DNA of 64,000 nt from Luteibacter jiangsuensis. GTDB taxonomy: Bacteria > Pseudomonadota > Gammaproteobacteria > Xanthomonadales > Rhodanobacteraceae. This document shows, piece by piece, positions 41,901-54,929 of the stretch (positions are counted from its first letter, which is position 1; each line of letters starts with the position of its first letter). Under the pieces are notes generated by a model that saw only the letters and a program-made list of their open reading frames with translations, searched no databases and was not told the DNA's origin. The position numbers and the translations under genes are program-made. Location: the NCBI RefSeq assembly GCF_030812295.1, contig NZ_JAUSSK010000002.1, positions 558,001-622,000 of the forward strand, written 5' to 3'.

Positions 41901-43586
41901 ACCGTCAGCTACACCTACGACGCACTGAACCGTCGTACCTCGGCGACTTACCCGACGACCGCCGACAACGTGTTGTGGCGTTACGACGAGCCGGACAGTA
42001 CGACCGGATGCGCGGGCTCCTTCCCGATCGGCCGGCTCACCCGCATCGTGGAATCGGCCGTGACAACGACCTATTGCTACGACCGGCGTGGGAACGTTAC
42101 CCGGAAGAGCCAGACGCTCGGAACACAGACCGACACGACCAGTTACACCTATACCCGCGCGGATCGGCTGGACACCGTGACGTATCCAAATGGTGGCAAG
42201 GTGACCTATTCGCGGGACTACCGGGGTCGCACGGTATCGATACTCTTCACGGCCCCTGGGGTGGGCCAGACCGTGGTCAGTAGCGTCACCTATCTGCCTT
42301 TCGGACCGGTGGCAAGTTACCGCCTGGGGAGCGGGCAGACCGTTACGCGAACTTACGATGCGAACTTTGCGGTCACCGACGTCTCCAGCCCGGCGCTCGA
42401 TCTGCACTTCGCACGCGACGTCATGGGCAACCTCGTGTCGCTCGGTGCCACCCCTGGCGCCATTCCGGCAACGGAAACCTACACTTATGATCCGCTCTAC
42501 CGCCTGACCTCCGTGAATGACGCGGATGGCGCGGCGATCGAGGCCTACACGTATAACAGGACCGGCGATCGACTGAACAAGGTGGCGCCAGGACAAGCCA
42601 CCGGCGCTTACGGCTATCAGGCAGGTACTCATTGGCTCACGAGCGTAGGAACCGATTCCCGTACCTACGATTCCAATGGAAACACGACCGGAAGCACGAT
42701 CGCCGGCGAGGCACTCGGCTACGGTTACAACGGCCGCAATCGCATGACGGCGGTCCGGCGCAATGGCGCTACGGTAGGTACGTACGTCTACAATGCGCTC
42801 GGACAGCGAGTGTCCAAGACGGTAACAACGCCTGCTGCTGGTATCACGCGGTTCGTGTATGACGAAAACAGTCAGCTATTGGCCGAGTATGGGGCCACGA
42901 ACCGGGATATTGTCTGGCTGGACAACTTGCCTATTGCAACGGTCGACATCGCTGGCGGAATTGCGACTTTCGGATATATTCACGCGGATGCATTGGGTAC
43001 GCCTCGTGCGGTCGCCGATGCCAAGGGCGTGACGATCTGGACGTTGGTGTTTCAGGGAAACCCGTTTGGCGAGATGCTGCCGGCGTCTCTGACGGGTTAC
43101 ACGTTGAATCTTCGTTTTCCCGGTCAGTACTTCGATGCAGAGAGTGGGCTGAGCTACAACGTAAACCGTGACTATGAACCCGCAACTGGGCGGTACATTC
43201 AAAGCGATCCACTCGGTTTACTCGCAGGCACTACTACGTTCGCCTACGTAGGAAGCAATCCGCTTGGTTACGTAGATCCTCTAGGGCTCGCTACAAAGTG
43301 CAAAACGATTCTCAAGCTTCCCGGCTTCGACCTCCAGAAATGCTCCGACGATGGATCACAGCCCTCGCCACAAGATGCGAAGGATGCGAAGCGGATGTCA
43401 CCGGGACAGTTGGACAAGGCATGTGAGGCAAACGGATACAAAGACGCACATGAAATGAAGAGGGATCTAAACCTCGGCAGCGACCGTGACATATTTGTCG
43501 ACGGGAATGGGAACATGTATTCCGGGCCACGGCAAGGAACCGGGCAAATGGAATACTTAAATATGAACTCGAACGGGTGGAAGTAA
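38955..43586 (+). CDS. exported Rhs/YD-repeat polymorphic toxin
   Basis: 1543 aa with AGGGAAA before the ATG. A signal or TM segment lies at residues ~20-40 (WRYAVLVLFVAGAVISPEARGQ). Next are a region of unknown fold, the DUF6531-like start VVGDPIDASTGNFHLQEDDYEGGPW, about 30 YD repeats forming the Rhs cocoon, and the core ending YFDAESGLSYNVNRDYEPATGRYIQSDPLGLLAGTTTFAYVGSNPLGYVDPLGL, the self-cleavage motif. The last 98 residues are the variable toxin. Its end (SDRDIFVDGNGNMYSGPRQGTG) resembles the polymorphic toxin 33 type; that call is tentative. No PAAR or VgrG is present. The stop overlaps the immunity gene start (TAATG). Confidence 0.93.
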   Translation: MDVRGTQGGRANWPATGMGLVGIAWRYAVLVLFVAGAVISPEARGQDASPSSGRQLPAWTTTVPAAAPNGIAATVDVTGTWHGNLHAAGDSTAADWAEEFELTQDVAGNVTGTRRTTPLSNASGWYLWSIAGGVSGNTLTIGDGTILAQGGSNTGCKTSMSLALSETPDGTRLQGTWTSTQAGCSSGTVDITRYGGQATKNLGSGARCDGGLGSAKSGSGSGGTASGNANGSSCAEVMGANVVGDPIDASTGNFHLQEDDYEGGPWLTFRRFYNSNGATAPAAMGFRWRHVFDRSLNISGNPANTIISLRPDGKQTIYTRSDSTGSWLADTRTDILTDLRDAQGAPMGYALFVGGTRQTENYDLAGHLISVVGQDGQGITLSYTATPSPAIGLLSTVTDSKGRQLVFTYDSSARLSVVKLPDGKSLSYSYGSSSSNLSQVVYADNQTRRYTYNESGFVGATPLPNALTGITDQRGIRYESITYDDLGRATSSTFNGNVGTTRIAYQADGTSAITYPLGNTVRIAPVSIDGLMRVGSLDGPCTPDCGQPWQSRTYDARGFPASMVDFNGVSTQTTYDAFGLLESTSEAVGLPEERRTQTTWDTGLRLPLVTRVLDGAGTALMATSQVYDATGLLLARCQADLAEPGASTYVCSPTGDVPAGVRRWIYTYCAVVDTTQCPLAGLLLSITGPRKDVVQTTTYQYYMDDTAQWRHGDLKSVTDALGHVTRIAKYDGAGRPTRTIDANGVITDLTYTPRGWLQSRTVRANADGSDASGDVLTKIAYTTYGNVETLTDPSGVVTNFIYDNAHRLTDIKDTAGNRIHYILDAAGNRVQEQVLNPSGVVIKGVTRTYNALGRLTRLFDGLNHVIMDASAPAAYDGNGHLVQNIDGLGVQTKATYDGLDRLVVAIQDASGKTAATQNTQTVTQYDALDHIEGISDPEGLATTYVRNAFGDVVNQVSPDTGPSSAGFDEAGNATTSTDARGTTVSYTYDALNRRTSATYPTTADNVLWRYDEPDSTTGCAGSFPIGRLTRIVESAVTTTYCYDRRGNVTRKSQTLGTQTDTTSYTYTRADRLDTVTYPNGGKVTYSRDYRGRTVSILFTAPGVGQTVVSSVTYLPFGPVASYRLGSGQTVTRTYDANFAVTDVSSPALDLHFARDVMGNLVSLGATPGAIPATETYTYDPLYRLTSVNDADGAAIEAYTYNRTGDRLNKVAPGQATGAYGYQAGTHWLTSVGTDSRTYDSNGNTTGSTIAGEALGYGYNGRNRMTAVRRNGATVGTYVYNALGQRVSKTVTTPAAGITRFVYDENSQLLAEYGATNRDIVWLDNLPIATVDIAGGIATFGYIHADALGTPRAVADAKGVTIWTLVFQGNPFGEMLPASLTGYTLNLRFPGQYFDAESGLSYNVNRDYEPATGRYIQSDPLGLLAGTTTFAYVGSNPLGYVDPLGLATKCKTILKLPGFDLQKCSDDGSQPSPQDAKDAKRMSPGQLDKACEANGYKDAHEMKRDLNLGSDRDIFVDGNGNMYSGPRQGTGQMEYLNMNSNGWK

Positions 43587-43972
43587 TGTCGTCGAAATTG
43601 TTCATCTCATTTTCACTCATCGGCACAACCACGCATCCTCGTGATATTTCTGCCGTTACTCGCATCAAGCCTTATACGGAATTATTGCGAGGCGAGCGAA
43701 ACAGCGAGCGAGACTTACCAAGATCCAATCTATGGACGCTTCGCTCGGAAGGCGGCCCGGAACAGTCCGTGGAGTCACATTGGAACACAATCGAGAAAGA
43801 TCTTCTGTCCAACATCGATGCTTTTCGTCGTTTTTCTGCAGAAGGTAGAGCAGTTATAACCATTGTCGTTATGGGCGATGACCCGCGATGTCCGAGTATT
43901 GAGATTCCCCCGTCCATGTCGCTTTTTGCTGGATCAATTGGTGCGACGATCGATGTCGATCACCTACAATAG
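43586..43972 (+). CDS. DUF4279-type cognate immunity protein
   Basis: 128 aa. The ATG at 43586 shares one base with the Rhs stop codon, and GGTGGAAG precedes it. KLFISFSLIGTTTHPRDISAVTRIKPY, later SVESHWNTIEKDLLSNIDAFRRF and the ending GSIGATIDVDHLQ match the DUF4279 pattern used by immunity proteins of Rhs and WapA toxins. Base composition is clearly lower in GC than the Rhs core, as usual for exchangeable toxin-immunity tips. Confidence 0.8.
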   Translation: MSSKLFISFSLIGTTTHPRDISAVTRIKPYTELLRGERNSERDLPRSNLWTLRSEGGPEQSVESHWNTIEKDLLSNIDAFRRFSAEGRAVITIVVMGDDPRCPSIEIPPSMSLFAGSIGATIDVDHLQ

Positions 43973-44598: not shown

Positions 44599-45012
44599 TC
44601 ATCGGCCGAAGGTGATGAACCGCTTGAGCCTGCCCGTTGCTCGTGCGATCACCCGACGCGTGCGCTCCCGCCACGAGCGACTAGCCCGATCAGAGGCGAC
44701 GTGACGTGCTACCTGCTTCCGCATGATCGCTTCGGCTTGGCTTGGTGAGAAGGCCCGAAGCCATTCCACTTCTCCATTGGAAATAAAGTAATGCGAGTGG
44801 CACGGAGCATCAGCAACGAGAATCGACGGCGTAATAGACGGTCCAGTCACCGTCGCTGAGATACGGTGACCGTCTGGCACCAACAGCGTGATACGGTGAC
44901 CGCATCCGCATGCGCAAAGGAGCGCTGCTAACTCGAATTCCACGTTGTGGTACACGACGCCCGCGATCAACTCCGCAGGAATACGCTGTACTGCCTCATA
45001 TCTGTATCTCAT
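44599..45012 (-). CDS. DUF6527-type protein of a ubiquitin-like operon
   Basis: 137 aa. The core AGVVYHNVEFELAALLCACGCGHRITLLV...PSITPSILV...PCHSHYFISNGEVEW has a Cys/His cluster (CACGCGH plus CHSH) that probably binds zinc, as in DUF6527 proteins associated with ThiF/multiubiquitin operons. The C-terminus is basic (SRSWRERTRRVIARATGRLKRF). Its ATG overlaps the E1 gene stop by 4 nt, so it is the last gene of the three-gene operon. Its biochemical role is unsettled; an E2-like, adaptor or target role are all possible. Confidence 0.75.
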   Translation of the reverse strand: MRYRYEAVQRIPAELIAGVVYHNVEFELAALLCACGCGHRITLLVPDGHRISATVTGPSITPSILVADAPCHSHYFISNGEVEWLRAFSPSQAEAIMRKQVARHVASDRASRSWRERTRRVIARATGRLKRFITFGR

Positions 45013-46220
45013 TCGCTGGCTCGCTCGGCGTCCGCTTCAAATGACGCGGTTTCGAAGGTGTACCACGCGGCGTCGTTCGTCCGGTCATATAGCCCGAAAT
45101 GCTGTTTAAAGCGGACAACGGCCATCGCCGCATTCAGCGCATTGAGCTCAATGATCTGCGCCTGCTTGCGGTACTCCGCATCCTTCGGATTCACAGTTGG
45201 CAAGTATGGGCTATCCACGGCTCGTTCGTAGGCCTCGCGATCGATTCCGGTGATGCGAACCACGCCGTTAAGCGTTCCGCCGAAGGATCGATTGAGTCCC
45301 ATACCGCAATCGACATAGGGGATGCCCCCATTGCTCAGCCATTCGACGATGAAGCGCCGCGAGGGGCCATCGTCGACTGAGACGAAGACGAAGTCGAAAT
45401 CGCGCAGACGATCTATGTTCTCGGCGGTAACCCGCTCTGGCACAGGTGTGATGCCAGCGTGCCAACTGTCGTAGTACTGACTCAGTGCTTCGACCTTCGG
45501 CTTTCCGATGGCGTTGCTGCCTATGACTCCTGGGATCCGAAACAGCGTATGGACGTGAATCTTGTCATCGTCGAACAACGTGATGGCTTCCAAGTGTGTT
45601 CGCACAACAAAATCCAGGATGCATGATCCGGTACCCCCGAGTCCGACAATGGCTACCTTTTTTCGTCGAAGGCGGTCACTTAGGTCGTTAATGCCGTAGT
45701 TCGAAGAAGCCGTGTCTGGGAGCCGAAGCGGCGATCCCTGCTCGGCAGCCCGCCGTTCGATGCCACGCAAAGGTGTCGCGCCGGGATGCGCCGCTATAGC
45801 TGGCCGGACTATGACGTCGAGATAGGTTTGGATCTTCTCTTGGAAGGAGACGTAGTTGCGCGGCTGCTGGTCATCGTCCCGCAGCTTCAACGAGAACGCC
45901 CAGTCCGTCATGATGCCGGGAATGATCTGGACAGTCGCAGGTGCGGCACCAATGCCCAGCTCGACTCCGCCCGCGGCGTACGGCCGGCCGCCACGCCACC
46001 ACACCTGGTGGGTGCCGGCAGGCTCGATCACTGATTCGGGACCAAGGGCAACGGGGGTGAACAGATCGCCATATTGAATAGCGCCGGCCTGATCCAGGTA
46101 GGGCAAGCCGTAGAGCGAAAAGTGCCCCCCCAAGAAGTCGGCGTGGTAGCCGAGTTCATGGAGGTCCCGGACGAACGGATTACGACTCGCCAGTTCCAGA
46201 AACACGGAATCGCATGCCAT
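45009..46220 (-). CDS. ThiF-family E1-like adenylyltransferase with N-terminal E2-like/DUF6791 region
   Basis: 403 aa from the ATG at 46220 (MACDSVFLELASRNPFVRDL). The N-terminal ~170 residues match the DUF6791 type (HFSLYGLPYLDQAGAIQYGDLFTP...HQVWWRGGRPYAAGG). The ThiF domain has the ATP loop KKVAIVGLGGTGSCILDFV, LFDDDKIHVHTLFR, RDFDFVFVSVDDGPSRRFI, and YVDCGMGL, whose Cys is a candidate for the thioester residue. Such enzymes adenylate the C-terminus of a ubiquitin-like protein. It overlaps the multiubiquitin gene by 41 nt and the DUF6527 gene by 4 nt. Confidence 0.88.
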   Translation of the reverse strand: MACDSVFLELASRNPFVRDLHELGYHADFLGGHFSLYGLPYLDQAGAIQYGDLFTPVALGPESVIEPAGTHQVWWRGGRPYAAGGVELGIGAAPATVQIIPGIMTDWAFSLKLRDDDQQPRNYVSFQEKIQTYLDVIVRPAIAAHPGATPLRGIERRAAEQGSPLRLPDTASSNYGINDLSDRLRRKKVAIVGLGGTGSCILDFVVRTHLEAITLFDDDKIHVHTLFRIPGVIGSNAIGKPKVEALSQYYDSWHAGITPVPERVTAENIDRLRDFDFVFVSVDDGPSRRFIVEWLSNGGIPYVDCGMGLNRSFGGTLNGVVRITGIDREAYERAVDSPYLPTVNPKDAEYRKQAQIIELNALNAAMAVVRFKQHFGLYDRTNDAAWYTFETASFEADAERASE

Positions 46221-46428
46221 TTTTGATTCTAACCTCTTCTGAAGGTGCGAGCGTGCCACTCGGATTCTCCGAGGGGCCATGGGAATACTTGACGACGTAC
46301 TGTTTCGACTGCGGTTGGCCTGCGCCAAGGTAGAGATCGACGACACGCTCGTACGAAATCGTCTGTGTCTCGACCTCGTGGCTATCCTGGTTGACGAAAA
46401 TATGAAGCTTTTTCTTTTCGGTGGTCAT
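46180..46428 (-). CDS. multiubiquitin-domain (ubiquitin-like) protein, single domain
   Basis: 82 aa: one beta-grasp unit, KLHIFVNQDSHEVETQTISYERVVDLYLGAG...YVVKYSHGP...GTLAPSEEVRIKNGMRFRVSGTGES. It matches the multiubiquitin pattern (v.Ing..y.v....itye.lv.l...vtys.....gtL..g..v.vk.Gm.F.V..T..S). It ends GTGES rather than Gly-Gly, like other proteins of this family. First gene of the operon; the putative substrate of the E1 encoded downstream. Confidence 0.85.
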   Translation of the reverse strand: MTTEKKKLHIFVNQDSHEVETQTISYERVVDLYLGAGQPQSKQYVVKYSHGPSENPSGTLAPSEEVRIKNGMRFRVSGTGES

Positions 46429-46710
46429 AATCTGTGCTCTCGAGGAGGTCCGTATAAAAGCCCATGGCGGTCATGAAATTAGAGACAACTCATCTTTATG
46501 AGTCCATGGACACAGATGCTGTGTTCGACTAAGAATCGAACATACAACGCGTTAGGTCGGGCACAGGGCCGCCCATATCCTTAGGCGCTTGGAAACGGCA
46601 AGTTCGGACATGACCGAAGGAACTATCTCCAGGGGCATCGCGTTGGCGGTAAAGTTGGGTGGCGTGTCCTAACGGGCGCGTCTGGAGAGCCTAAGCACAA
46701 GGAGGCCGCC
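46429..46710. promoter_or_regulatory. divergent control region of the ubiquitin-like and sigma/ImmA operons
   Basis: 282 nt with three inverted repeats: ACTCAT-N4-ATGAGT (46488-46503), TGTTCGA-N7-TCGAACA (46522-46542) and TTCGG-N6-CCGAA (46603-46618). The second is the strongest operator candidate. AAGGAGG at 46699-46705 is an ideal Shine-Dalgarno for the sigma factor gene (GTG 46711). Confidence 0.55.
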
Positions 46711-47268
46711 GTGACCAAAGCAGATCCCGATCATTCCATCCGGTCTACGGACGAAATTCATTCATTGATTCAGCAGCTTACGCGTGCCGAATGGCGGCGA
46801 TTGATGGTCGCCGCCTCCCGTCTCGCATCGAGCCTGCCAGGCTCAAGCGCTGAAGACGTGCTGCAAGAAGCCCTAGATGCGGCCTTGACTGGCCGACGAA
46901 TCTGTCCCAGGCATGTACCCGTTGTGACCTTTCTTGCGAATGCCATGCGTAGCGAACTAAATAACCTGCGCAAGAAGGCGGAGCGAACGGATGCATTGGA
47001 CGAAGTCTCGGAGGATCTCGATGGTTTGGTCGTCGAGTCGGCCGAGGACGCCGTGGTGTGGATGAACGACCTCGTCGCGCGGGTGCAACGCATCGCGGCG
47101 GCGTCGAAAGACGGTCGGGTACTAATGGTTCTTGAGGGGCGAGCAGAAGGGATGTCGCGCGAGGAGTTGCGTGACATGCTTAGCATCCCTTGGACCGAGT
47201 TCGAGTCCCTGGAGCGGCAGATCCGCCGGCTTCGGGATCGCGACGCCGACGAGGAGCGGACGGCATGA
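46711..47268 (+). CDS. sigma-70-like (ECF-type) transcription factor
   Basis: 185 aa with GTG start and a strong AAGGAGG. The region-2-like part (RLMVAASRLASSLPGSSAEDVLQEALDAALTGRRICPRHVPVVTFLANAMRSELNNLRKKAER) and the region-4-like part (GRVLMVLEGRAEGMSREELRDMLSIPWTEFESLERQIRRLRDR) show the sigma pattern. It is divergent from the ubiquitin-like operon and overlaps the next gene (ATGA). It probably directs transcription of these operons, under control of its two partners. Confidence 0.8.
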   Translation: MTKADPDHSIRSTDEIHSLIQQLTRAEWRRLMVAASRLASSLPGSSAEDVLQEALDAALTGRRICPRHVPVVTFLANAMRSELNNLRKKAERTDALDEVSEDLDGLVVESAEDAVVWMNDLVARVQRIAAASKDGRVLMVLEGRAEGMSREELRDMLSIPWTEFESLERQIRRLRDRDADEERTA

Positions 47269-47690
47269 CCAAGCACGCCAACGATGCGAAAGACCAGTTC
47301 GAACGGACGCTTGATTTCCTGCTTGAGGATGTCGATCGCCTGACCGACGCGGAGGTCGAGGAGGAGCTGCGCCTGGCCTTTGGCGATGTGTCTGCCGCCG
47401 ATGCCGCCGCTGCGCGCGCATTGATGGGCGCGAAGCGAGCCGGCGGGGCTGCCCGATTGGCCAGGGCAAAGATGGCCCTCGCCGGCCAATCGCGCGCCGA
47501 CGCACTACCTAGCGTGTCCGGCGCCGAAGCCAAGGCAGCGGTGCTCGGATACTGGCGTGCCAACCCGGGAGAACGGCCGATCACTATGGCCGCGAGAAAC
47601 GGCCAGACCTTGTCGGAAAGCGATGCGCTAGAAGTCTATCGCTCTCTCTTAGCATTGGGTTTAATCTCGGAGCCATCGAGTGGCCAGTGA
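47265..47690 (+). CDS. 141-aa unknown protein between sigma factor and ImmA (candidate anti-sigma)
   Basis: Start ATG 47265 overlaps the sigma stop. The protein is helical and charged: QFERTLDFLLEDVDRLTDAEVEEELRLAFGD, then Ala-rich helices, then SVSGAEAKAAVLGYWRANPGERPITMAARNGQTLSESDALEVYRSLLALGLI, which could form a small helical domain. No TM. I do not recognise a family. Its position makes it a good candidate for a repressor or anti-sigma factor cleaved by the ImmA protease encoded next. Confidence 0.7.
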   Translation: MTKHANDAKDQFERTLDFLLEDVDRLTDAEVEEELRLAFGDVSAADAAAARALMGAKRAGGAARLARAKMALAGQSRADALPSVSGAEAKAAVLGYWRANPGERPITMAARNGQTLSESDALEVYRSLLALGLISEPSSGQ

Positions 47691-48471
47691 TTTGGCCGCA
47701 GAGGCGCTCATCGACGAGCTGGGCATTGACCATCCAAAAGACATCGATCTCGACGCGATCGCGTTGACAGTGGGCATCTCGGTAACCTATCGCCGCTTGA
47801 CTGGTTGCGATGCGCTTCTCGTTGGACATGAGGCTCGTGCCATGGTCACAGTCAATCGGGACTGCTCGACAGAGCGGCAACGGTTCTCGTTAGCCCACGA
47901 ATTGGGACACTGGCACTATCACCGAGGTCAAGGCTTGTATTGCTTGTCGGGCGACATAGACGGCGACCCCCGAGTAGGTCGAGAGCCAGAGCTGACGGCC
48001 GATCATTACGCCTCGTCGCTATTGATGCCCACACGACTTTTTGTACCCTTCGTGGACGCAGCGCAACCAACGTGGAAGCACATGCGTTCCGTTGCATCAG
48101 CTTTCTCAACTAGCCTCGTCGCAACCGCTCTGCGAATGTCAGAATTGAGCGCTTCACCGTTGCTGTTTGTCGTGGCCAAGCATGGGCGAAGGCAGTGGTT
48201 CCATCGAGGTCCAGCGGGTACCGAAGCGGGTTGGTTTCCTACAGAGGCGCTGGGGGCGGAGAGCGCCGCGTTTGACCTGAGCTTCAGAGCGGAGCCGGCA
48301 CGTGGGCCTCGCCGCGTACCGGCCCACGCTTGGTTTGATGGGTGGACGTTTGGGGGCGGCATGGAGATCATGGAGGATGCAATCCGCGTCGGCGACTCAG
48401 CCTACGCATTGCTCTGGCCCACTACGGGTGGTCTGCAAGCGAGGTCTAGGGGTGCGTCCCGGACGTGGTGA
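47680..48471 (+). CDS. ImmA/IrrE-family metalloprotease
   Basis: 263 aa with GTG start overlapping the preceding gene by 11 nt. The zinc site is HELGHWHYH (HExxH) in QRFSLAHELGHWHYHRG, and the third ligand region is EPELTADHYASSLLMPTRLF. The C-terminal ~110 residues (KHGRRQWFHRGP...HAWFDGW...EDAIRVGDSAYALLWP) form an extra sensor-like domain. IrrE/ImmA proteases cleave a partner repressor in response to stress or phage-derived signals; the 141-aa neighbour is the probable partner. Confidence 0.88.
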   Translation: MASDLAAEALIDELGIDHPKDIDLDAIALTVGISVTYRRLTGCDALLVGHEARAMVTVNRDCSTERQRFSLAHELGHWHYHRGQGLYCLSGDIDGDPRVGREPELTADHYASSLLMPTRLFVPFVDAAQPTWKHMRSVASAFSTSLVATALRMSELSASPLLFVVAKHGRRQWFHRGPAGTEAGWFPTEALGAESAAFDLSFRAEPARGPRRVPAHAWFDGWTFGGGMEIMEDAIRVGDSAYALLWPTTGGLQARSRGASRTW

Positions 48472-48850
48472 CCTGATCAGAAAATTGAGGCAAATGCTCG
48501 CGCTAGGGCTGCATCGTTCGTCTGCACTCGTGGGTAGACGAACGGTCAAGGAAGTCGTTGGTAATGGACGAACGCAAAGACCATCTTTCGTCGCATCGTA
48601 TGTGCCGCAGACACCAGTATTGCAAACGGCCATAATAGGCCGCAGAAAAATCACCACATCAATCGGCTCGACCGAGGTGCAATCCGCTGGCAGCTCATCT
48701 TGCAAGCCAGGCGAAAGCCAAACGTCGTGATACGCCTGTTCGCGGCGCCGCTTGTAGGTCTTTCAGGCCCCACGCCTGCCCTCGCTGTCAAGCCCAGTCA
48801 GGCGCCGACGCGCCGTCATGCTCGAGCCATTATGTTTGTCGTTAACGAAG
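48472..48850. other. 379-nt stretch without a convincing gene
   Basis: Contains only unsupported ORFs on both strands. Base composition is near 53-55% GC, lower than the core genome, in line with an acquired region. No strong palindromes seen. Confidence 0.35.
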
Positions 48851-49726
48851 ATGATTCACCACTACACCAGTGCCGCCACGCTCAAACTGATTCTCGCCAA
48901 CCGAACGATTCGCTTCAGGCGCGCGGACTTGCTCGACGATGAGTCCGAGGTGCCGTTTCAGCATGCGCTTGTACATCGGAAATCGTTCTTCATCAGTTCT
49001 TGGTCGCAGGCAACAGTCGGCGAAGCAGGCATGTGGTCGCGTTACGGCGACTTTGACCAAGGTGTTCGCCTCTCGGTAGACACCTTGCGCTTTCCATGGT
49101 CACCACTGTCTCTGGAGATATCCCGAGGCACCGGAAGGCTAAAACCCGATGGCACGCCTCAGCGTGTGGGCCTCAAGGTGACCGATCTTTTAGTTCCCTT
49201 CTCAAAAGAGACCTTCTTGGGAAACGGCTATATCGCGACCCCCATGAGCGGGGACTTGCAAGAGACCTTCGGCGGAAGAGTGCACTACGCCACCGATCCG
49301 CAGGCCGTCATCGCGCAGCTCATTAATGTCACAAACGAGGGCATTACCGTCAGAGGCGACGGCTCAATTTTGGCGCGTGTCAAAGACAGCGGATGGGCGG
49401 ACCAAGCGGAGTATCGCTTCGTTCTCCACGCGATTCGTGGTCCGGCTATGGTCTACACGGCGGATCCGGCGGCATATGAGCGGTCAATGGTGAATATGGT
49501 GGAGGCGGCCCTAGAGCGGATGGTGTTCGCCGACTTGCATCCCGAAGTCGAGTTCATCGACTTGCCCCTCGCTTATGACGCTTTCGACGATCTCACCGTC
49601 ACTCTGGGGCCTGCCATGACAGCAGAGCAGCAACAGGCGACCATCGAAGACGTCCACGCGCTAGCACCATCGGTGCGCGTCGTGCCATCGGCCCTACGCA
49701 TCAAGCCCCGACCTCGTCCTGCCTGA
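48851..49726 (+). CDS. DUF2971 domain-containing protein
   Basis: 291 aa; the start at 48851 gives MIHHYTSAATLKLILANRTIRFRRADLLDDESE, the typical DUF2971 opening (lyhYts...l..Il....lrfs.p..fND..E). SWSQATVGEAGMWSRYGDFDQGVRLSVD, YATDPQAVIA and WADQAEYRFVL follow in the expected order. Such proteins are frequent in defence islands and have been linked to ADP-ribosyltransferase-like folds; no activity is shown. It sits alone between the ImmA and phosphoesterase genes on the same strand. Confidence 0.8.
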   Translation: MIHHYTSAATLKLILANRTIRFRRADLLDDESEVPFQHALVHRKSFFISSWSQATVGEAGMWSRYGDFDQGVRLSVDTLRFPWSPLSLEISRGTGRLKPDGTPQRVGLKVTDLLVPFSKETFLGNGYIATPMSGDLQETFGGRVHYATDPQAVIAQLINVTNEGITVRGDGSILARVKDSGWADQAEYRFVLHAIRGPAMVYTADPAAYERSMVNMVEAALERMVFADLHPEVEFIDLPLAYDAFDDLTVTLGPAMTAEQQQATIEDVHALAPSVRVVPSALRIKPRPRPA

Positions 49727-50037
49727 GCCGCTGGCACCGCGTAGCGTTGCCAAGGATCGGCATTCGTGACACGAAGGCACGCCCATGACGCGTTGCCGAA
49801 AATGCGTACTGGCCTTAGGGGAGTGGTCGAAAAAATATCACTGAGGACGCTTCAGCACATTGATATGATGGATCGCTACAGGGGAAGCACAGGGTTTCAT
49901 GCGCGCCGCCAACGCGGTGATCCATTCGGATCATCGCTGGTCGCTCCGTGGATGAGGCACCAATGGGTTCACCTGAGAGTGGGGTGCAAGCCATTGATCG
50001 GCCTGCGCCATGTCGATGACCCAATCCAGGAGCGCCC
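49727..50037. other. 311-nt leader region before the phosphoesterase-NTPase gene
   Basis: An ORF (49766-50041) ends in an ATGA overlap with the next gene but its Arg/His/Trp-rich product has no start signal and looks spurious. A possible -10 (TGATATGAT) lies at about 49860. CCAGGAG before 50038 is the ribosome binding site of the next gene. Confidence 0.35.
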
Positions 50038-53000
50038 ATGAAGGTCGCGATGCTCATCTTGAGCGACGTCCATATCTCACATGCTGCCGACCCTATCTTG
50101 GGTAAGGCAAAAGAGATTGCGCAGGCGTCGTATGTCTGCTTGGCCAATGTGGACGCCGTACTCATGCTGATCGCCGGGGATGTCGCGTTTAGCGGTCGAG
50201 CAGAGGAATACGATCTAGCCACACCATTCTTCAGTGAAATAATTTCAAGCCTGCGGGCCGAGCGAGACCTGCCCATACATGTCGCTGTCGTACCCGGTAA
50301 CCATGACTGCGACTTCTCCCAGAACGACTCCATACGAAAAATGCTCATCAAGGGCGTGCTGAGTGGCGACAAGGCTGACGACGAGGTCGTCAAGAAGTGC
50401 ACCGGAGTTCAGGAGGCGTTCTTCGCCTTCCGTGACGCACTCGAGGGTGTAACCAACAAGCGCGACATCAGTGATCGCTTGTGGCGTACCACTGAGATCG
50501 TCGTGGGCGACGAGTCCGTATTCATCGATGCCATCAACGTCGCTTGGCTGTCGACGCTCAAGGAAAAGATCGGCGAGCTCACGTTCCCTTGGGAGGACTT
50601 CGCCCCAGCTTTGGCGCCGAGCGCAAGGGGGCTTCGGGTGGCTATCCAGCATCACCCGTCGAACTGGCTGCATCAAGCGACGTACCGGCCTTACCGTGCA
50701 TTTTTGAAGAAGCGATCGCAGATCGTGATCACCGGCCATGAGCACGAGCCCAACGTCGGGCTAACCATTGACACCGAAGCGGCCACGACCACCTTTGTCG
50801 AATGCGGGCCCTTGCAAGAACACGATGGCCTGGGCCGCGCGAGCTTCTTGGTGCTAACGGTTGATACCGGAGCCGAGCAGGTCTCGGCCTGGCGTTTCAG
50901 CTTCGATGGCACCAGATTTGTGCCCGCGGCCGACGCACCTTGGGTACAGCCCCGGGCGCTTCGATTGACCGAAGGTGAGGCCTTCGTAGTTCGCGCCGCC
51001 TTTGAGCGAACACTCAATGACCCAGGTGCGCCAATCATGGACGCCTACAGCCGAGAAATCGAGCTGGCCCAGTTTTTTGTATACCCTGACATGACCGATC
51101 AGGCCCAGCGCGGTAAGCGCGGGTCTATGCCGATTTATTCAAGCACCGAACTGGCCTCGATGGAGTGGCTCAAGACTGGTGTCATTGTAGCTGGCGAGGA
51201 GAAGTCGGGCCGGACGTCGTTGCTCTATCAGCTCTTTGGGCGGTATCGCGATGCAGCGCTGATTCCGGTCATCGTCAATGGTAAGGATCTCAAACACACC
51301 CAGCCTGATCAGATCGAGCGGGTGATTCGCGGCGCCTTCGAAGCCCAATACGAAACCGACTATCTCCGCTTCCAGCAGCTGGAAGTGGCGCGAAAAGTCG
51401 TCCTCGTCGATGATTTCCAATTCGTCGGGCTCAAGAACGAGCAACATCGTCGCGTGCTGTTAGCGAACCTTAAGGCAGTCTGCGGTGGCCTGTTGATAGC
51501 GTGTGACAAGGCGTTCTCGACGGGCGGTCTGGAGCTGGACGGAGTCAAGCTACGCCGGTTTAGTCTTCAGCCATTTGGATACAAAGCACGCCAAGAGCTG
51601 ATCCAGCGTTGGTACGGATTCTCCGAACCCAACCTCAGCGAAGCTGAGTTCACGGTCCGTTGCGACGAGTCTGAGCGCGTGGTCAATCATGTCATGACTC
51701 GAAAGGTTATTCCGGCGCTGCCGCTCTACCTGGTCACGCTACTGCAAAGCCTGACGGTCAAGCGTGGGCCTGAGCTTATCGACAGCAGCCTCGGTCATTA
51801 CTACCACTACCTTATCTCGGAGGCATTCCGTGGCTCTCATGCGCCTTTAGAAAAGTTCAACGAACTGTTCGACTATTGTGCGCACCTTGCTTGGACGTTT
51901 CATTTAGGTGGTGCGGAGGACCTGTCTGAGGCGAGTATGCGAAGGTTCACGCAGGAATACGCGAAGGAGTGGACGACGACCGAATTTGAGTCCCGATTGG
52001 AATTCTTACTCAAAGCCAAGATCCTGGAGCGTCGCGGCTCGTCTCTGTCGTTTCGCTACCCGTATGTGTACTACTATCTCAAGGGCAAATATCTCGCTGA
52101 GCAGATCGACGACAAAGAGGTTCGGGCGTACATCGAATCGGCCTGTGCTCAATTGTATGTGCGTGACAATGCCAACACGGTGCTGTTCTTGGCTCATCAT
52201 GCGCACGAGGACTTCTTTGTGCGCTCTATCCAAGGCACCCTCGACGCTCTATTCGCCGATTTCAATCCCGTTTGCTTTGATGGTGACATTCGTGATGTCA
52301 CAGATCTGGTGACCAAGGCTGCGCCGAAGATTGAGTTCAGAGGCGGTACGCCGAAGGAGCATCGGGCCAAGGCAGCTGAATTCCAGGATGACATGGACGA
52401 CGGCGACGACGGCCTGATGGATGTCCCCGAGACGGGCGATCAAGCTAGCTTTCAAGCTCAGACGACCATGCTGTTCAAGACCACCGAGGTATTGGGGCTG
52501 CTCCTCAAAGCCCAATACTCGAGCTTCCGTCACAGCCGGAAGCAGGAGCTTCTAAGCAGCATTTTCAACGGTTCGATGCGCGGCCTGCGAGCCATCTATG
52601 TCGCACTGATTAAAGAGCCTGAGCGGCTTCAGCGCAGAGCGGACTCCTTTGCCGGCAAGGCTGTTAAGAATCTCGAGGAACGGCGGAAGCTAGTGGAGCG
52701 CATCATTGCGTTGATTATCGAAATGTTGAGCTTTGGCTACGTGGTCCACGCAGCGGAATGCGCACGTTCCCCCGATTTGCGTGACGATGTAGAAGCGGTT
52801 ATCAAGCGAACGAATTCCTCGGCCTTTGACCTGATCTCGGTCGCGATATGCTTGGATTCGGGTAATGGATTGCCTCGTGCTGAGCTTCGTGAGCTAAAGA
52901 AGCGTGTCGCGGACAACCTAGTGGCCACACGGTTGCTGTCGCTGGTCGTAATGTATCGCCTATACATGTTCGAGACGACCGACGAGGACCGGGTCTGGGT

Positions 53001-53094
53001 GTATCGAGAGTTTGGTTTTGGTTATGGGAATCCAGGGGCCGCCATCGCCGCAACCAGCTCGTCCATGGCTGGCTTGGCCACGCTCGATAGTTAG
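50038..53094 (+). CDS. metallophosphoesterase fused to a STAND-like NTPase and a helical sensor region
   Basis: 1018 aa. Residues ~1-270 are a calcineurin-like phosphoesterase with all metal motifs: SDVHIS (DxH), AGDVAFSG (GD), PGNHDCDFS (GNHD) and TGHEHEPN (GHxH). Residues ~375-620 form an NTPase with P-loop AGEEKSGRTSLLYQLFG and Walker B KVVLVDDFQFVG; the P-loop has Arg where Lys is usual. The remaining ~400 residues are helical (SRLEFLLKAKILERRGSSLSFRYPYVYYYLKGKYLAEQI, then an acidic DDMDDGDDGLMD loop), typical of STAND sensor repeats. The fusion suggests ligand-gated activation of a phosphoesterase that could degrade nucleic acid or nucleotides, as in abortive-infection systems. Confidence 0.85.
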   Translation: MKVAMLILSDVHISHAADPILGKAKEIAQASYVCLANVDAVLMLIAGDVAFSGRAEEYDLATPFFSEIISSLRAERDLPIHVAVVPGNHDCDFSQNDSIRKMLIKGVLSGDKADDEVVKKCTGVQEAFFAFRDALEGVTNKRDISDRLWRTTEIVVGDESVFIDAINVAWLSTLKEKIGELTFPWEDFAPALAPSARGLRVAIQHHPSNWLHQATYRPYRAFLKKRSQIVITGHEHEPNVGLTIDTEAATTTFVECGPLQEHDGLGRASFLVLTVDTGAEQVSAWRFSFDGTRFVPAADAPWVQPRALRLTEGEAFVVRAAFERTLNDPGAPIMDAYSREIELAQFFVYPDMTDQAQRGKRGSMPIYSSTELASMEWLKTGVIVAGEEKSGRTSLLYQLFGRYRDAALIPVIVNGKDLKHTQPDQIERVIRGAFEAQYETDYLRFQQLEVARKVVLVDDFQFVGLKNEQHRRVLLANLKAVCGGLLIACDKAFSTGGLELDGVKLRRFSLQPFGYKARQELIQRWYGFSEPNLSEAEFTVRCDESERVVNHVMTRKVIPALPLYLVTLLQSLTVKRGPELIDSSLGHYYHYLISEAFRGSHAPLEKFNELFDYCAHLAWTFHLGGAEDLSEASMRRFTQEYAKEWTTTEFESRLEFLLKAKILERRGSSLSFRYPYVYYYLKGKYLAEQIDDKEVRAYIESACAQLYVRDNANTVLFLAHHAHEDFFVRSIQGTLDALFADFNPVCFDGDIRDVTDLVTKAAPKIEFRGGTPKEHRAKAAEFQDDMDDGDDGLMDVPETGDQASFQAQTTMLFKTTEVLGLLLKAQYSSFRHSRKQELLSSIFNGSMRGLRAIYVALIKEPERLQRRADSFAGKAVKNLEERRKLVERIIALIIEMLSFGYVVHAAECARSPDLRDDVEAVIKRTNSSAFDLISVAICLDSGNGLPRAELRELKKRVADNLVATRLLSLVVMYRLYMFETTDEDRVWVYREFGFGYGNPGAAIAATSSSMAGLATLDS

Positions 53095-53173
53095 CCGCAT
53101 GCGTTAGGTCAGCCCCTGCGCGGACAACGACGTTACACCCAGTTGGCAGGACGCGGAGGACTCTGGAAAAAAT

Positions 53174-53218
53174 TCCCGTCCCGTCCCGTCCCGTCCCGTC
53201 CCGTCCCGTCCCGTCCCG
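53174..53218 (+). repeat. nine tandem copies of TCCCG
   Basis: An uninterrupted 45-bp run of a pentanucleotide, 80 nt after the phosphoesterase-NTPase stop. Intergenic, so no reading-frame effect. Length variation by slippage is likely. Confidence 0.95.
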
Positions 53219-53295
53219 CGTTCGGCTGCGGGGTAGGCCGAGCGAATTACTAGGTATGCATGAGCGCCGTTAGTATCCCTATGGTCCCTGCAAAA

Positions 53296-53325
53296 AAAGG
53301 CCTGCTAGTGAGCTAGCAGGCCTTT
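53296..53325. terminator. bidirectional intrinsic terminator
   Basis: Perfect 13-bp stem AAAGGCCTGCTAG / CTAGCAGGCCTTT with loop TGAG, flanked by A-runs on the left and T-rich sequence on the right. It serves the convergent phosphoesterase-NTPase and Ntn-hydrolase transcripts. Confidence 0.9.
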
Positions 53326-53354
53326 CTACGGCACACGGTAAAGAAGGCGGGCGA

Positions 53355-53558
53355 TCATCGCTTCCTAACGGAACCGTTCTTCACGGAAAAAACGCCATCA
53401 TTGAACACTACGGTGTACGAGCGTGTCTTCGTAGGTCCACGTGTCTCAGCTGACCTGGGTGTGCTAACCGCTCCGGTCCGCTCTGACGGCTTCGAAGGAC
53501 TGGCGCCCTTCGATGATCGGGGTGATCTAACTGAGTTGGTAAACCCGTTATCTATCAT
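53355..53558 (-). CDS. 67-aa small protein coupled to the Ntn hydrolase
   Basis: ATG at 53558 overlaps the hydrolase stop by 11 nt. A Ser/Arg/Pro-rich N-terminal half (TNSVRSPRSSKGASPSKPSERTG) precedes a compact ending SYTVVFNDGVFSVKNGSVRKR. Unrecognised. The tight overlap and the terminator right after its stop (30 nt) argue it is real. Confidence 0.5.
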   Translation of the reverse strand: MIDNGFTNSVRSPRSSKGASPSKPSERTGAVSTPRSAETRGPTKTRSYTVVFNDGVFSVKNGSVRKR

Positions 53559-54579
53559 GGCTGAATCCCGTGTGGTCGTGCGTCAGTTCCGGTTCGTGAA
53601 GCATGGTGAAGCGCTCTCCACGCCGCAATACGCCAATGTGGGTACGCCCCCCGACCGTTGCGATACCTTTGCTGAAGTGCTGCATACCGGACTGTGTGTT
53701 AACCAGGAACGAAACTAGATCGATGCCGTATTGAGTCGGGAGGTTGGCATAATCTATATCTGCCCAGCCCACCGACCACGGTAGGGACGGTTCGACCGTC
53801 TCCTCGATCCGAAGTTCCGTTCCATCAGGAACGGCGATTCCGGCAACGTGAAGTTCCCGTGAAACTCCTTCCAGCAGCGTCGTTCGCTGGTCCTCGAGCG
53901 CCCGAACGATCTCACGGCTAACAATGGCCCGCAACCTTCCGTCGACGCCGCTCAGGAGCCGTTCGACGAAGTTTGCCTGGCCGGTCCAGCAGAGACCCGA
54001 CCGTTCTTCCTCAAACTGCTCATGGCAGGAATTCTCCTTGGTATCGATCACGAATACTTGGCCGTGGTCGTGGTCTGGCGAAAAGCCTCCCACGATGAGC
54101 TCTACCGTTCCCAAATATCGCTTCCGTTCGTCAGGGAGGTTCTCCCAGTCGGTTTGCCTCTCCCATTCGCTGCGGATGTATGCCCGGAAGTCCTCGGCAA
54201 CGGCGCTGACCGAGTCAAAGTGGGTGTTCGCCCGACCGCACGCTCGTCTATAACGTCCAGCGTGAGCCGCGATGGTCAGCCCGTTCAACGTGCCCATTCC
54301 CGCAGTCGTCGCAGCGACGCTGGTATCGCCGTCCTCGAATAGTAGAAACATCTTATTGACGCCCCCGAATACTGTGGTGGCAACAGTCTCGATGTGAGGC
54401 TGGGCGAGAGCGACAACGAAGTTGCCATCTCTGTCGGTAATGAAATCGCCATTCTCGTCGAGCGCAAAGCCCGCGCCATCTGGGCGGAATGGAAAGATTG
54501 CGGTGTCGGTGAGACTAGAGAAGCTGTCGCAACCGAGAACGATGGCGTCATACGTAAGCGCAGCAACATTAATTGTCAC
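53548..54579 (-). CDS. proteasome-type Ntn hydrolase
   Basis: 343 aa. After Met removal the N-terminus would be Thr1: TINVAALTYDAIVLGCDSFSS, with Asp at position 17, exactly as in HslV and proteasome beta subunits (T1...D17). VFGGVNKMFLLFEDGDTSVAATTAGMGTLNGLTIAAHAG parallels the Lys33 strand and the AGxxADA region of HslV, with an insertion between D17 and the Lys. The ~190-residue C-terminal extension (GGFSPDHDHGQVFVIDTKE...LCWTGQANFVERLLSG) is longer than HslV. No ATPase partner (HslU-like) is next to it. Predicted self-compartmentalising or single-ring protease, convergent with the phosphoesterase-NTPase gene. Confidence 0.75.
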   Translation of the reverse strand: MTINVAALTYDAIVLGCDSFSSLTDTAIFPFRPDGAGFALDENGDFITDRDGNFVVALAQPHIETVATTVFGGVNKMFLLFEDGDTSVAATTAGMGTLNGLTIAAHAGRYRRACGRANTHFDSVSAVAEDFRAYIRSEWERQTDWENLPDERKRYLGTVELIVGGFSPDHDHGQVFVIDTKENSCHEQFEEERSGLCWTGQANFVERLLSGVDGRLRAIVSREIVRALEDQRTTLLEGVSRELHVAGIAVPDGTELRIEETVEPSLPWSVGWADIDYANLPTQYGIDLVSFLVNTQSGMQHFSKGIATVGGRTHIGVLRRGERFTMLHEPELTHDHTGFSHDR

Positions 54580-54929
54580 AAACAGACCCTCCCTGCCATG
54601 CGATCGGCGGCAAGTGAAGCATATTCAGAGCGAAGCAGTGTCAGGCCCGGGCGGAGCAGGAAGCACGCCGCAAAGAAAACGGACCAAAAAAGCAAAACCG
54701 TAGCCCAGTCCACCCTTTACGGGCCGATCAAGCAAAAGGGCTATAAGCAAATCAATCACTTACAGGCACCTATCGGCGGGGGCGAATCCGCATCCATCAA
54801 CCTAGTCACGCCGTCTCCGTTCGTGCGTTCACCATAGTGCTCACTGCAGCGAGAACTATGGTATTCCGTCCACCTCAGCCCCGAATCCGTCCCATTGCCC
54901 CCGCCCCCCTAACTCCCTACATTGGTGCA
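54580..54929. promoter_or_regulatory. 350-nt region between the island and ntrB, with an 8-bp inverted repeat
   Basis: ACCATAGT (54831-54838) pairs with ACTATGGT (54855-54862) over a 16-nt spacer, 68 nt before the ntrB start. GGTGCA-N5-TGCACC spans the ntrB ATG (54925-54941), an arrangement opposite to the usual NtrC site. No gene seen. Confidence 0.4.

Follow-up and report, generated by a model that had tools for sequence, protein, structure and literature searches.

The stretch of Luteibacter jiangsuensis DNA analyzed here (64,000 nucleotides; the window) carries, next to an Rhs locus, an island at positions 44599–54579 that includes a ubiquitin-like (Ubl) operon, and raises the question of how and when such an operon is switched on and which of its neighbors belong to it. 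A preliminary description had read the island as one linked set with inducible transcription, in which a ubiquitin-like tag and a proteasome-like enzyme might work together, and all of the genes that it named were recovered where it had placed them. Judged by comparison between loci, the real unit is smaller and spans 44599–48471, where the DUF6527, DUF6791-ThiF, and Ubl genes on the minus strand are divergent from a plus-strand trio consisting of a sigma-like gene, a gene for a 141-residue product termed X, and an M78 peptidase of the CapP type. The trio begins 282 bp from the Ubl operon, and a DUF2971-like gene, the anti-phage gene DS-8, and a proteasome-like gene lie downstream of it. With a probability of roughly three in four, this divergon is a functional unit in which X would be an anti-sigma factor cut by CapP on DNA damage, with a dedicated sigma factor turning the operon on. 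This reading is carried by the gene set and its conservation, by the exchange of partner operons, and by paired, predicted sigma-type promoters that co-vary with the sigma factor. The features of the unit are as follows.

44599..45012, minus strand: DUF6527 protein, third gene of the Ubl operon (PF20137, E 4.6e-16), its start overlapping the E1 stop
45009..46220, minus strand: DUF6791-ThiF (E1-like) protein (PF20590, 1.2e-17; PF00899, 1.3e-16)
46180..46428, minus strand: single-domain ubiquitin-like protein (Multi_ubiq, PF14452, 39 bits against a cut-off of 24.5)
46582..46610, minus strand: predicted sigma-type promoter facing the Ubl operon, TGTCCGAA ... GCCTA (score 23.5; 1% threshold 12.2)
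46665..46693, plus strand: predicted sigma-type promoter facing sigma–X–CapP, TGTCCTAA ... GCCTA (score 16.7; 1% threshold 12.2)
46711..47268, plus strand: extracytoplasmic function (ECF)-like sigma factor, with a GTG start after AAGGAGG
47265..47690, plus strand: X, an all-helical protein and proposed anti-sigma factor, with an ATGA overlap with the sigma gene
47680..48471, plus strand: CapP-type M78/ImmA-type metallopeptidase (HELGH; PF06114, 1.4e-12; PADLOC capP, 2.2e-54)

Gene content and partner operons

Profile searches upheld the identities proposed beforehand for the DUF6527, ThiF, Multi_ubiq, M78/ImmA, and phosphoesterase-STAND proteins, whereas the proteasome-type assignment was recovered not by profile but from a structural model and an invariant triad, and the DUF2971 match proved weak (E 0.032). 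The DUF6791-ThiF gene likely starts at the ATG at 46220, 41 nt within the Ubl gene, an overlap also found in an annotated relative (L031); analyses of the E1-like protein took 45009–46202, the protein from residue 7. The Ubl protein ends in ...GTGES, as do four relatives that were read, and matched the multi-ubiquitin protein 9cd2 in the PDB (E 2e-6), while the E1-like protein matched BubCD (E 2e-10) through its ThiF domain only. DUF6527, in which Cys33/35/37, Cys71, Ser73, and His74 are invariant (nine sequences aligned), gave nothing significant against known structures.

Across a sample of 299 genomes of the order, the E1-like protein found a match at E ≤ 1e-10 in 12, nine of which (its own included) extend over most of the length and three over the ThiF domain only. 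Genes for Ubl and DUF6527 adjoin E1 at all eight of the other long-match loci, although at L024 the Ubl was visible only with a later profile. The whole six-gene set is present at L018, with an E1 78% identical to that of the window. At L019, L021, L022, and L025, the Ubl operon is divergent from a CapP gene that is more distantly related. Relatives of E1 on plasmids (57–61% identical) are annotated as ThiF and adjoin a multiubiquitin protein.

The operon shares with Bub operons (BubCD, PDB 9ea4) a Multi_ubiq protein, a ThiF E1, DUF6527, and the association with CapP, but differs in its single Ubl domain and DUF6791-ThiF protein, and the resemblance of its E1 to BubCD does not extend over the whole length. 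Prok-E2_E, present at the BubCD-type relative L037, is absent from the window operon in a profile search, a criterion taken from that relative and not from a published definition. The L037 operon, in which Multi_ubiq is fused to Prok-E2_E and E1 matches BubCD at 2e-25, forms together with L042 a second Ubl operon class that uses the same sigma–X–CapP trio. The linkage of CapP to ubiquitin-like operons is already known, because CapW or CapH+CapP adjoins 219 of 544 Bub operons (PMC13373217).

The gene called ImmA in the preliminary description is CapP, a known controller of immune operons, and the HExxH motif was found in 86 of 86 CapP frames. Taken alone, the window sigma finds no sigma family in Pfam and matches those of NCBIfam only weakly (best 0.0024), whereas 19 of 67 members of its family match Sigma70_r2 (PF04542, best 1.8e-6). 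Region 4 (PF08281) was matched by one of the 67, and one relative is annotated as sigma-70 family. At 65 of 80 loci, X starts within the sigma stop codon, so that the two genes overlap by 4 nt.

To follow the spread of the trio, an alignment of CapP proteins from trio loci was run against 84,980 species genomes, and the best 80 of 374 relatives were used. A sigma match lies upstream in 75 of these 80 (in two pieces at L067, cut by the contig end at L077, and weak at L098) and X was found in 76. Of the other five, L064 and L099 run into a contig end before any sigma gene, and L058, L061, and L095 truly lack sigma. The opposite operon contains Ubl/E1/DUF6527 relatives at 26 of the 80 loci, eight of them of the window's class, with DUF6527 present in 24 of the 26. 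A CBASS-type (cyclic oligonucleotide-based antiphage signaling) cyclase-like gene cluster occurs at 10 of the 80, and one representative, L113, was confirmed as DncV-like. The other partners, each type judged from one or two representatives, include a TRIP13 relative, E2-ThiF-JAB with an MBL-type gene, and BilD-like, SLATT, and PDC-S06 proteins, and the opposite genes were not identified at some loci. A search with the sigma protein gave 17 plasmid records, in which the trio lies opposite Ubl operons in Paracoccus (L037) and Pseudosulfitobacter (L042), opposite a CBASS operon (SMODS, SAVED) in Cereibacter sphaeroides (L036), and opposite small genes at L035, L038, L039, and L040; L041, L043, and L044 are plasmid sigma loci with no CapP gene. 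By gene order, the cassette is plugged into different immune operons elsewhere.

At L038, L040, L047, L056, L074, and L083, small genes occupy the position of the immune operon opposite the trio. They are of DUF3892 type, of DUF2188 type, or of an unnamed family of about 93 residues, and are candidate immune or stress genes.

The exchange of partners also bears on what the divergon is for. It may be a real unit that serves general DNA-damage or stress physiology and not phage defense, in keeping with the statement that protection by Bub operons has yet to be demonstrated and that they may act in broader responses to stress (PMC13373217). The same cassette, however, stands opposite CBASS, E1-E2-JAB/MBL-type, and BilD-like genes, and the divergon is located in a variable region beside DS-8; a purely physiological role is possible, but we hold it doubtful.

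Predicted paired promoters between the operons

Two matched promoters, overlooked in the preliminary description, are predicted between the operons. They face outward and have two boxes each, with the pattern TGTCCGA-N~17-GC[AC]TA. In the window, their GCCTA boxes occupy 46582–46586 on the minus strand and 46689–46693 on the plus strand. The pattern alone is not rare, with at least two matches in 13 of 100 shuffles of the window and 32 in the whole genome, and the case for promoters therefore rests on comparison between loci. When two-box words were counted without supervision upstream of 71 non-redundant sigma genes, TGTCC-N19-GCAT appeared in 23, as compared with at most 6 in five shuffled sets. 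Of 83 sigma-upstream regions, 43 carried the strict motif (100 shuffles: mean 0.61, maximum 3), and 16 carried it in both orientations. With a matrix trained on these same loci, 61 of the 83 regions had sites above the 1% threshold in both orientations, and 73 had a site in at least one; for the non-redundant sigma loci the figures were 52 and 60 of 70. By comparison, matrix sites in both orientations were seen at 0 of 12 Ubl loci without sigma, and of 14,373 random 400-bp segments drawn from the same loci none had both and 370 had at least one. Five loci outside the training set gave both sites in three and at least one in four.

Both sites were found in 21 of the 29 loci that have Ubl/E1 across from the trio and in 39 of 50 others, and the promoter pair is therefore independent of the partner operon. 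Within a locus the two sites are alike (13.7 of 17, against 11.4 for permuted pairs with a permutation maximum of 12.1), and in 50 of 52 loci both have the same choice of A or C in the –10 box. The distance between promoters tracks the distance between sigma proteins (Mantel r 0.53, permutation maximum 0.19), and the two –35 boxes lie from 4 to 176 bp apart. Because variants are shared within a locus, promoter and sigma co-vary, and the spacing of the –35 boxes is variable, the sites are better read as targets of a sigma factor than as a generic operator. The pair thus has the predicted features of a cognate, autoregulated two-box promoter of the ECF-like sigma, and the inducible transcription earlier proposed for the Ubl operon gains support from a sigma–X–CapP divergon with such putative promoters.

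The possibility that the paired boxes form a fixed palindromic operator was considered and rejected on their spacing. A genome-wide sigma regulon was likewise set aside, the strict pattern giving 32 matches as compared with 85 for a reversed control, and none can be claimed beyond the divergon. In the 52 non-redundant sigma loci, the spacing of the facing –35 boxes clusters near 8–11 and 18–24 bp, perhaps reflecting helical phasing.

X and the proposed control

The AlphaFold 2 model of X is helical and, with a predicted local distance difference test (pLDDT) score of 86, confident at the level of single residues, but its predicted template modeling score is 0.49; it found no match in the PDB, and no known anti-sigma fold was matched. 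The length of X varies with the presence of CapP. At the sigma loci without CapP L043, L044, and L127, X is shortened to its N-terminal ∼60 residues. When the sigma family was sampled in one bacterial family (14 of 248 genomes) and pooled with the plasmid loci, full-length X was found with CapP at nine of nine distinct loci and an N-terminal-only X without CapP at five of five (L159, L161 = L127, L162, L043, and L044), giving a pooled Fisher value of ∼5e-4; of the loci pooled, L159 and L162 alone postdate the hypothesis. L058, which has no sigma, retains a C-terminal remnant of X. The simplest reading is that the N-terminal half of X would hold sigma and that the C-terminal half would be what CapP acts on. 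Sigma relatives with neither a recognizable X nor CapP occur at L126, L128, L164/L129, and L041; at the last, on an Ensifer adhaerens plasmid (5896–9646), the sigma relative lies directly before a helicase gene.

X sits in the CapH position beside CapP, and it could instead be a diverged CapH, a DNA-binding repressor that blocks both promoters until it is cut by CapP, with sigma merely a polymerase subunit and control by de-repression as in ordinary CapH+CapP. Three observations favor such a repressor: PADLOC capH weakly matches the X of the window (1.9e-4) and three of six other X proteins, marginal matches to the winged-helix family MCM_C occur in 5 of 72 X proteins (best 0.009), and the –35 boxes face each other at the clustered spacings noted above. 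No Pfam helix-turn-helix (HTH), on the other hand, was found in the X of the window or six relatives, as compared with four of four CapH proteins from other Ubl loci. The family matches listed for the 72 X proteins (25 of 39 families shown) are all marginal, and no HTH-type family is among them other than MCM_C, the commonest. X gave no alignment with a four-sequence CapH profile (hhalign probability 0.2 on the percent scale), the range of box spacings leaves no fixed palindrome, and an X cut down to its N-terminal part pairs with sigma where CapP is absent. We therefore consider a CapH-like repressor unlikely and favor X as an anti-sigma factor.

In the proposed mechanism, uncut X would be a sigma-binding inhibitor that keeps sigma off, and its C-terminal half would be the target of the CapP protease. 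CapP is activated by single-stranded DNA (ssDNA) and cuts the repressor CapH (PMC13373217). On DNA damage it would here destroy X and release sigma, and the freed sigma would drive the two matched outward promoters, that of its own operon, with positive feedback, and that of the immune operon; elsewhere the same cassette is plugged into other immune operons. Four elements of this scheme are inferred: binding of sigma by X, cleavage of X by CapP, triggering by ssDNA, and protection against phage by the Ubl operon.

It is also probable, if slightly less so, that the cassette represents a further class of controller, in which a sigma factor is held by X carrying a C-terminal degron for ssDNA-activated CapP and switches unrelated immune operons (ubiquitin-like, CBASS, Bil-like, and E1-E2-JAB/MBL) through matched divergent promoters with positive feedback. 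The difference from the known arrangement lies in the use of sigma and X with matched promoters in place of an HTH repressor. A literature search found no description of a sigma–CapP controller of immune operons, within a coverage that did not extend to the primary Bub and CapH/CapP papers, so that absence from print is not established.

ECF sigma/anti-sigma pairs with regulated proteolysis combine a coupled small partner, an autoregulated promoter, and a membrane protease cascade. The trio resembles them in having a sigma protein, a translationally coupled small partner, a putative autoregulated promoter, and a protease input, but the protease is the soluble CapP and not a membrane cascade, the output is an immune operon, and X matches no known anti-sigma fold. 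A closer comparison is with the CapH+CapP controller of immune operons, reportedly described by Lau et al. in 2022. Common to both are a small regulator gene directly upstream of CapP and a CapP-type M78 protease linked to ssDNA/DNA damage and placed beside an immune operon (PMC13373217). X, in contrast, has no recognized HTH, could not be aligned with the set of four CapH proteins, and is encoded directly after a sigma gene, and the paired sigma-type promoters make control most likely a matter of activation and not of de-repression. CapK+CapS is likewise a modular DNA-damage controller of Bub, CBASS, Bil, and MBL operons and has a sigma-regulator flavor, with anti-sigma kinase and STAS relatives, but CapS is a repressor and no sigma factor is involved, whereas the present cassette has sigma and a protease (PMC13373217).

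The published DNA-damage controllers CapW, CapH+CapP, and CapK+CapS all act by relieving a repressor (PMC13373217). If the proposal is true, a sigma controller with feedback would follow a different logic, a threshold followed by strong induction, insulated from host promoters. The promoter motif would mark the controlled neighbor operon and ease its prediction, and operons opposite the cassette, such as those for DUF3892- and DUF2188-type small proteins, would become candidate immune systems. How and when bacterial ubiquitin-like operons switch on would also become directly testable.

Neighboring genes and setting of the island

Three further genes lie downstream of the divergon, and one at the end of the Rhs gene.

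48818..49726, plus strand: DUF2971-like protein, unlinked neighbor (PF11185, E 0.032, below the cut-off)
50038..53094, plus strand: DS-8 anti-phage protein, metallophosphoesterase plus nSTAND4, a STAND/NACHT-type NTPase (NF053861, 939.6 bits against a cut-off of 790)
53548..54579, minus strand: proteasome beta/Anbu-like N-terminal nucleophile (Ntn) hydrolase, phage-type accessory gene (structure match, triad)
43577–43972: DUF4279 gene, overlapping the end of the Rhs gene (E 2.6e-8)

A comparison with 103 other sigma/CapP/Ubl loci, a number that includes a few duplicates of the same locus (L018 = L045), showed no relatives of DS-8, the DUF2971-like gene, or the Ntn gene within the DNA compared. 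The single linked island of the preliminary description is thus retained for the Ubl operon and the sigma/ImmA trio and given up for the other three genes; the search for conserved linkage that it had called for showed independence for these three and not for the Ubl operon and trio. All three appear, from gene neighborhoods, to be independent neighbors of the divergon.

DS-8 is a published single-protein defense system in which the phosphoesterase and the NTPase are both needed (PMC13092281), and for this reason it is most simply a neighbor. The metallophosphoesterase and NTPase of the system are also present in the window protein, which scores above the curated cut-off but has the P-loop GEEKSGRTS, with Arg where Walker A usually has Lys. 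Its relatives on plasmids amount to six records, all distant (20–24% identity).

The proteasome-type gene had no family match in profile searches (Pfam, PADLOC, and NCBIfam), and its protein gave nothing meaningful against the PDB by sequence. In a Foldseek search its model, with a pLDDT of only 66, paired with 20S beta subunits and Anbu (E 1.1e-6, probability 1.00), and T2, D18, and K76, which we take to be the Thr/Asp/Lys catalytic triad of the Ntn protein, are invariant in the alignments made. The predicted fold and the Thr-Asp-Lys triad are thus common to Anbu and 20S proteasome beta subunits, but the window protein has 343 residues with insertions, has no Pfam match, and is phage-carried. 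Its relatives comprise 16 phage records, all 16 from Pseudomonas phages with the host P. aeruginosa (50–51% identity), and were also found in eight viral contigs (L132–L139), at most 2 kb from the contig end in six of the eight; none were found on plasmids. The most fitting description of the gene is an accessory gene of phage type. It occurs in temperate P. aeruginosa phages, and the LESphi2 copy is annotated “proteasome subunit beta”; the LESphi2 papers listed by a literature search do not contain the word proteasome.

These results bear on the model of the preliminary description, in which ubiquitin-like tagging is followed by degradation by the proteasome-like enzyme of the same island. 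The proximity of the Ubl operon and the Ntn gene, the intact-looking catalytic triad, and the proteasome fold speak for it, as does the presence of both in one relative from the order, G100, where they lie on different contigs. The Ntn gene is, however, carried by phages, has no Ubl operon beside it in the two order relatives in which it occurs (one of them G100), and stands beside none of the 103 other loci. Moreover, no unfoldase gene was recognized among the island genes, in an analysis that made no search aimed at unfoldases. A tag-and-degrade link between the two is accordingly most improbable, and the Ubl operon is better paired with the trio opposite it.

The island lies in a stretch of low G+C content (52–62% across 43–55 kb, as compared with 61–71% outside). 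Its right flank was found in all 21 genomes searched from the genus, its own included, and sequence common with congeners restarts at 54,879–54,914 in seven of the seven compared; to the left of this junction, over the ≤18 kb compared, the sole match to the window is a 0.4-kb repeat present in two congeners. On these alignments the island is a variable insert that adjoins a core gene and the Rhs locus. The junction with core sequence at ∼54,880 is sharp in all seven congeners, the other side being unlike the window in each, and it looks like an insertion hotspot. At the opposite end, the DUF4279 gene at 43577–43972 is perhaps the immunity gene of the Rhs gene.

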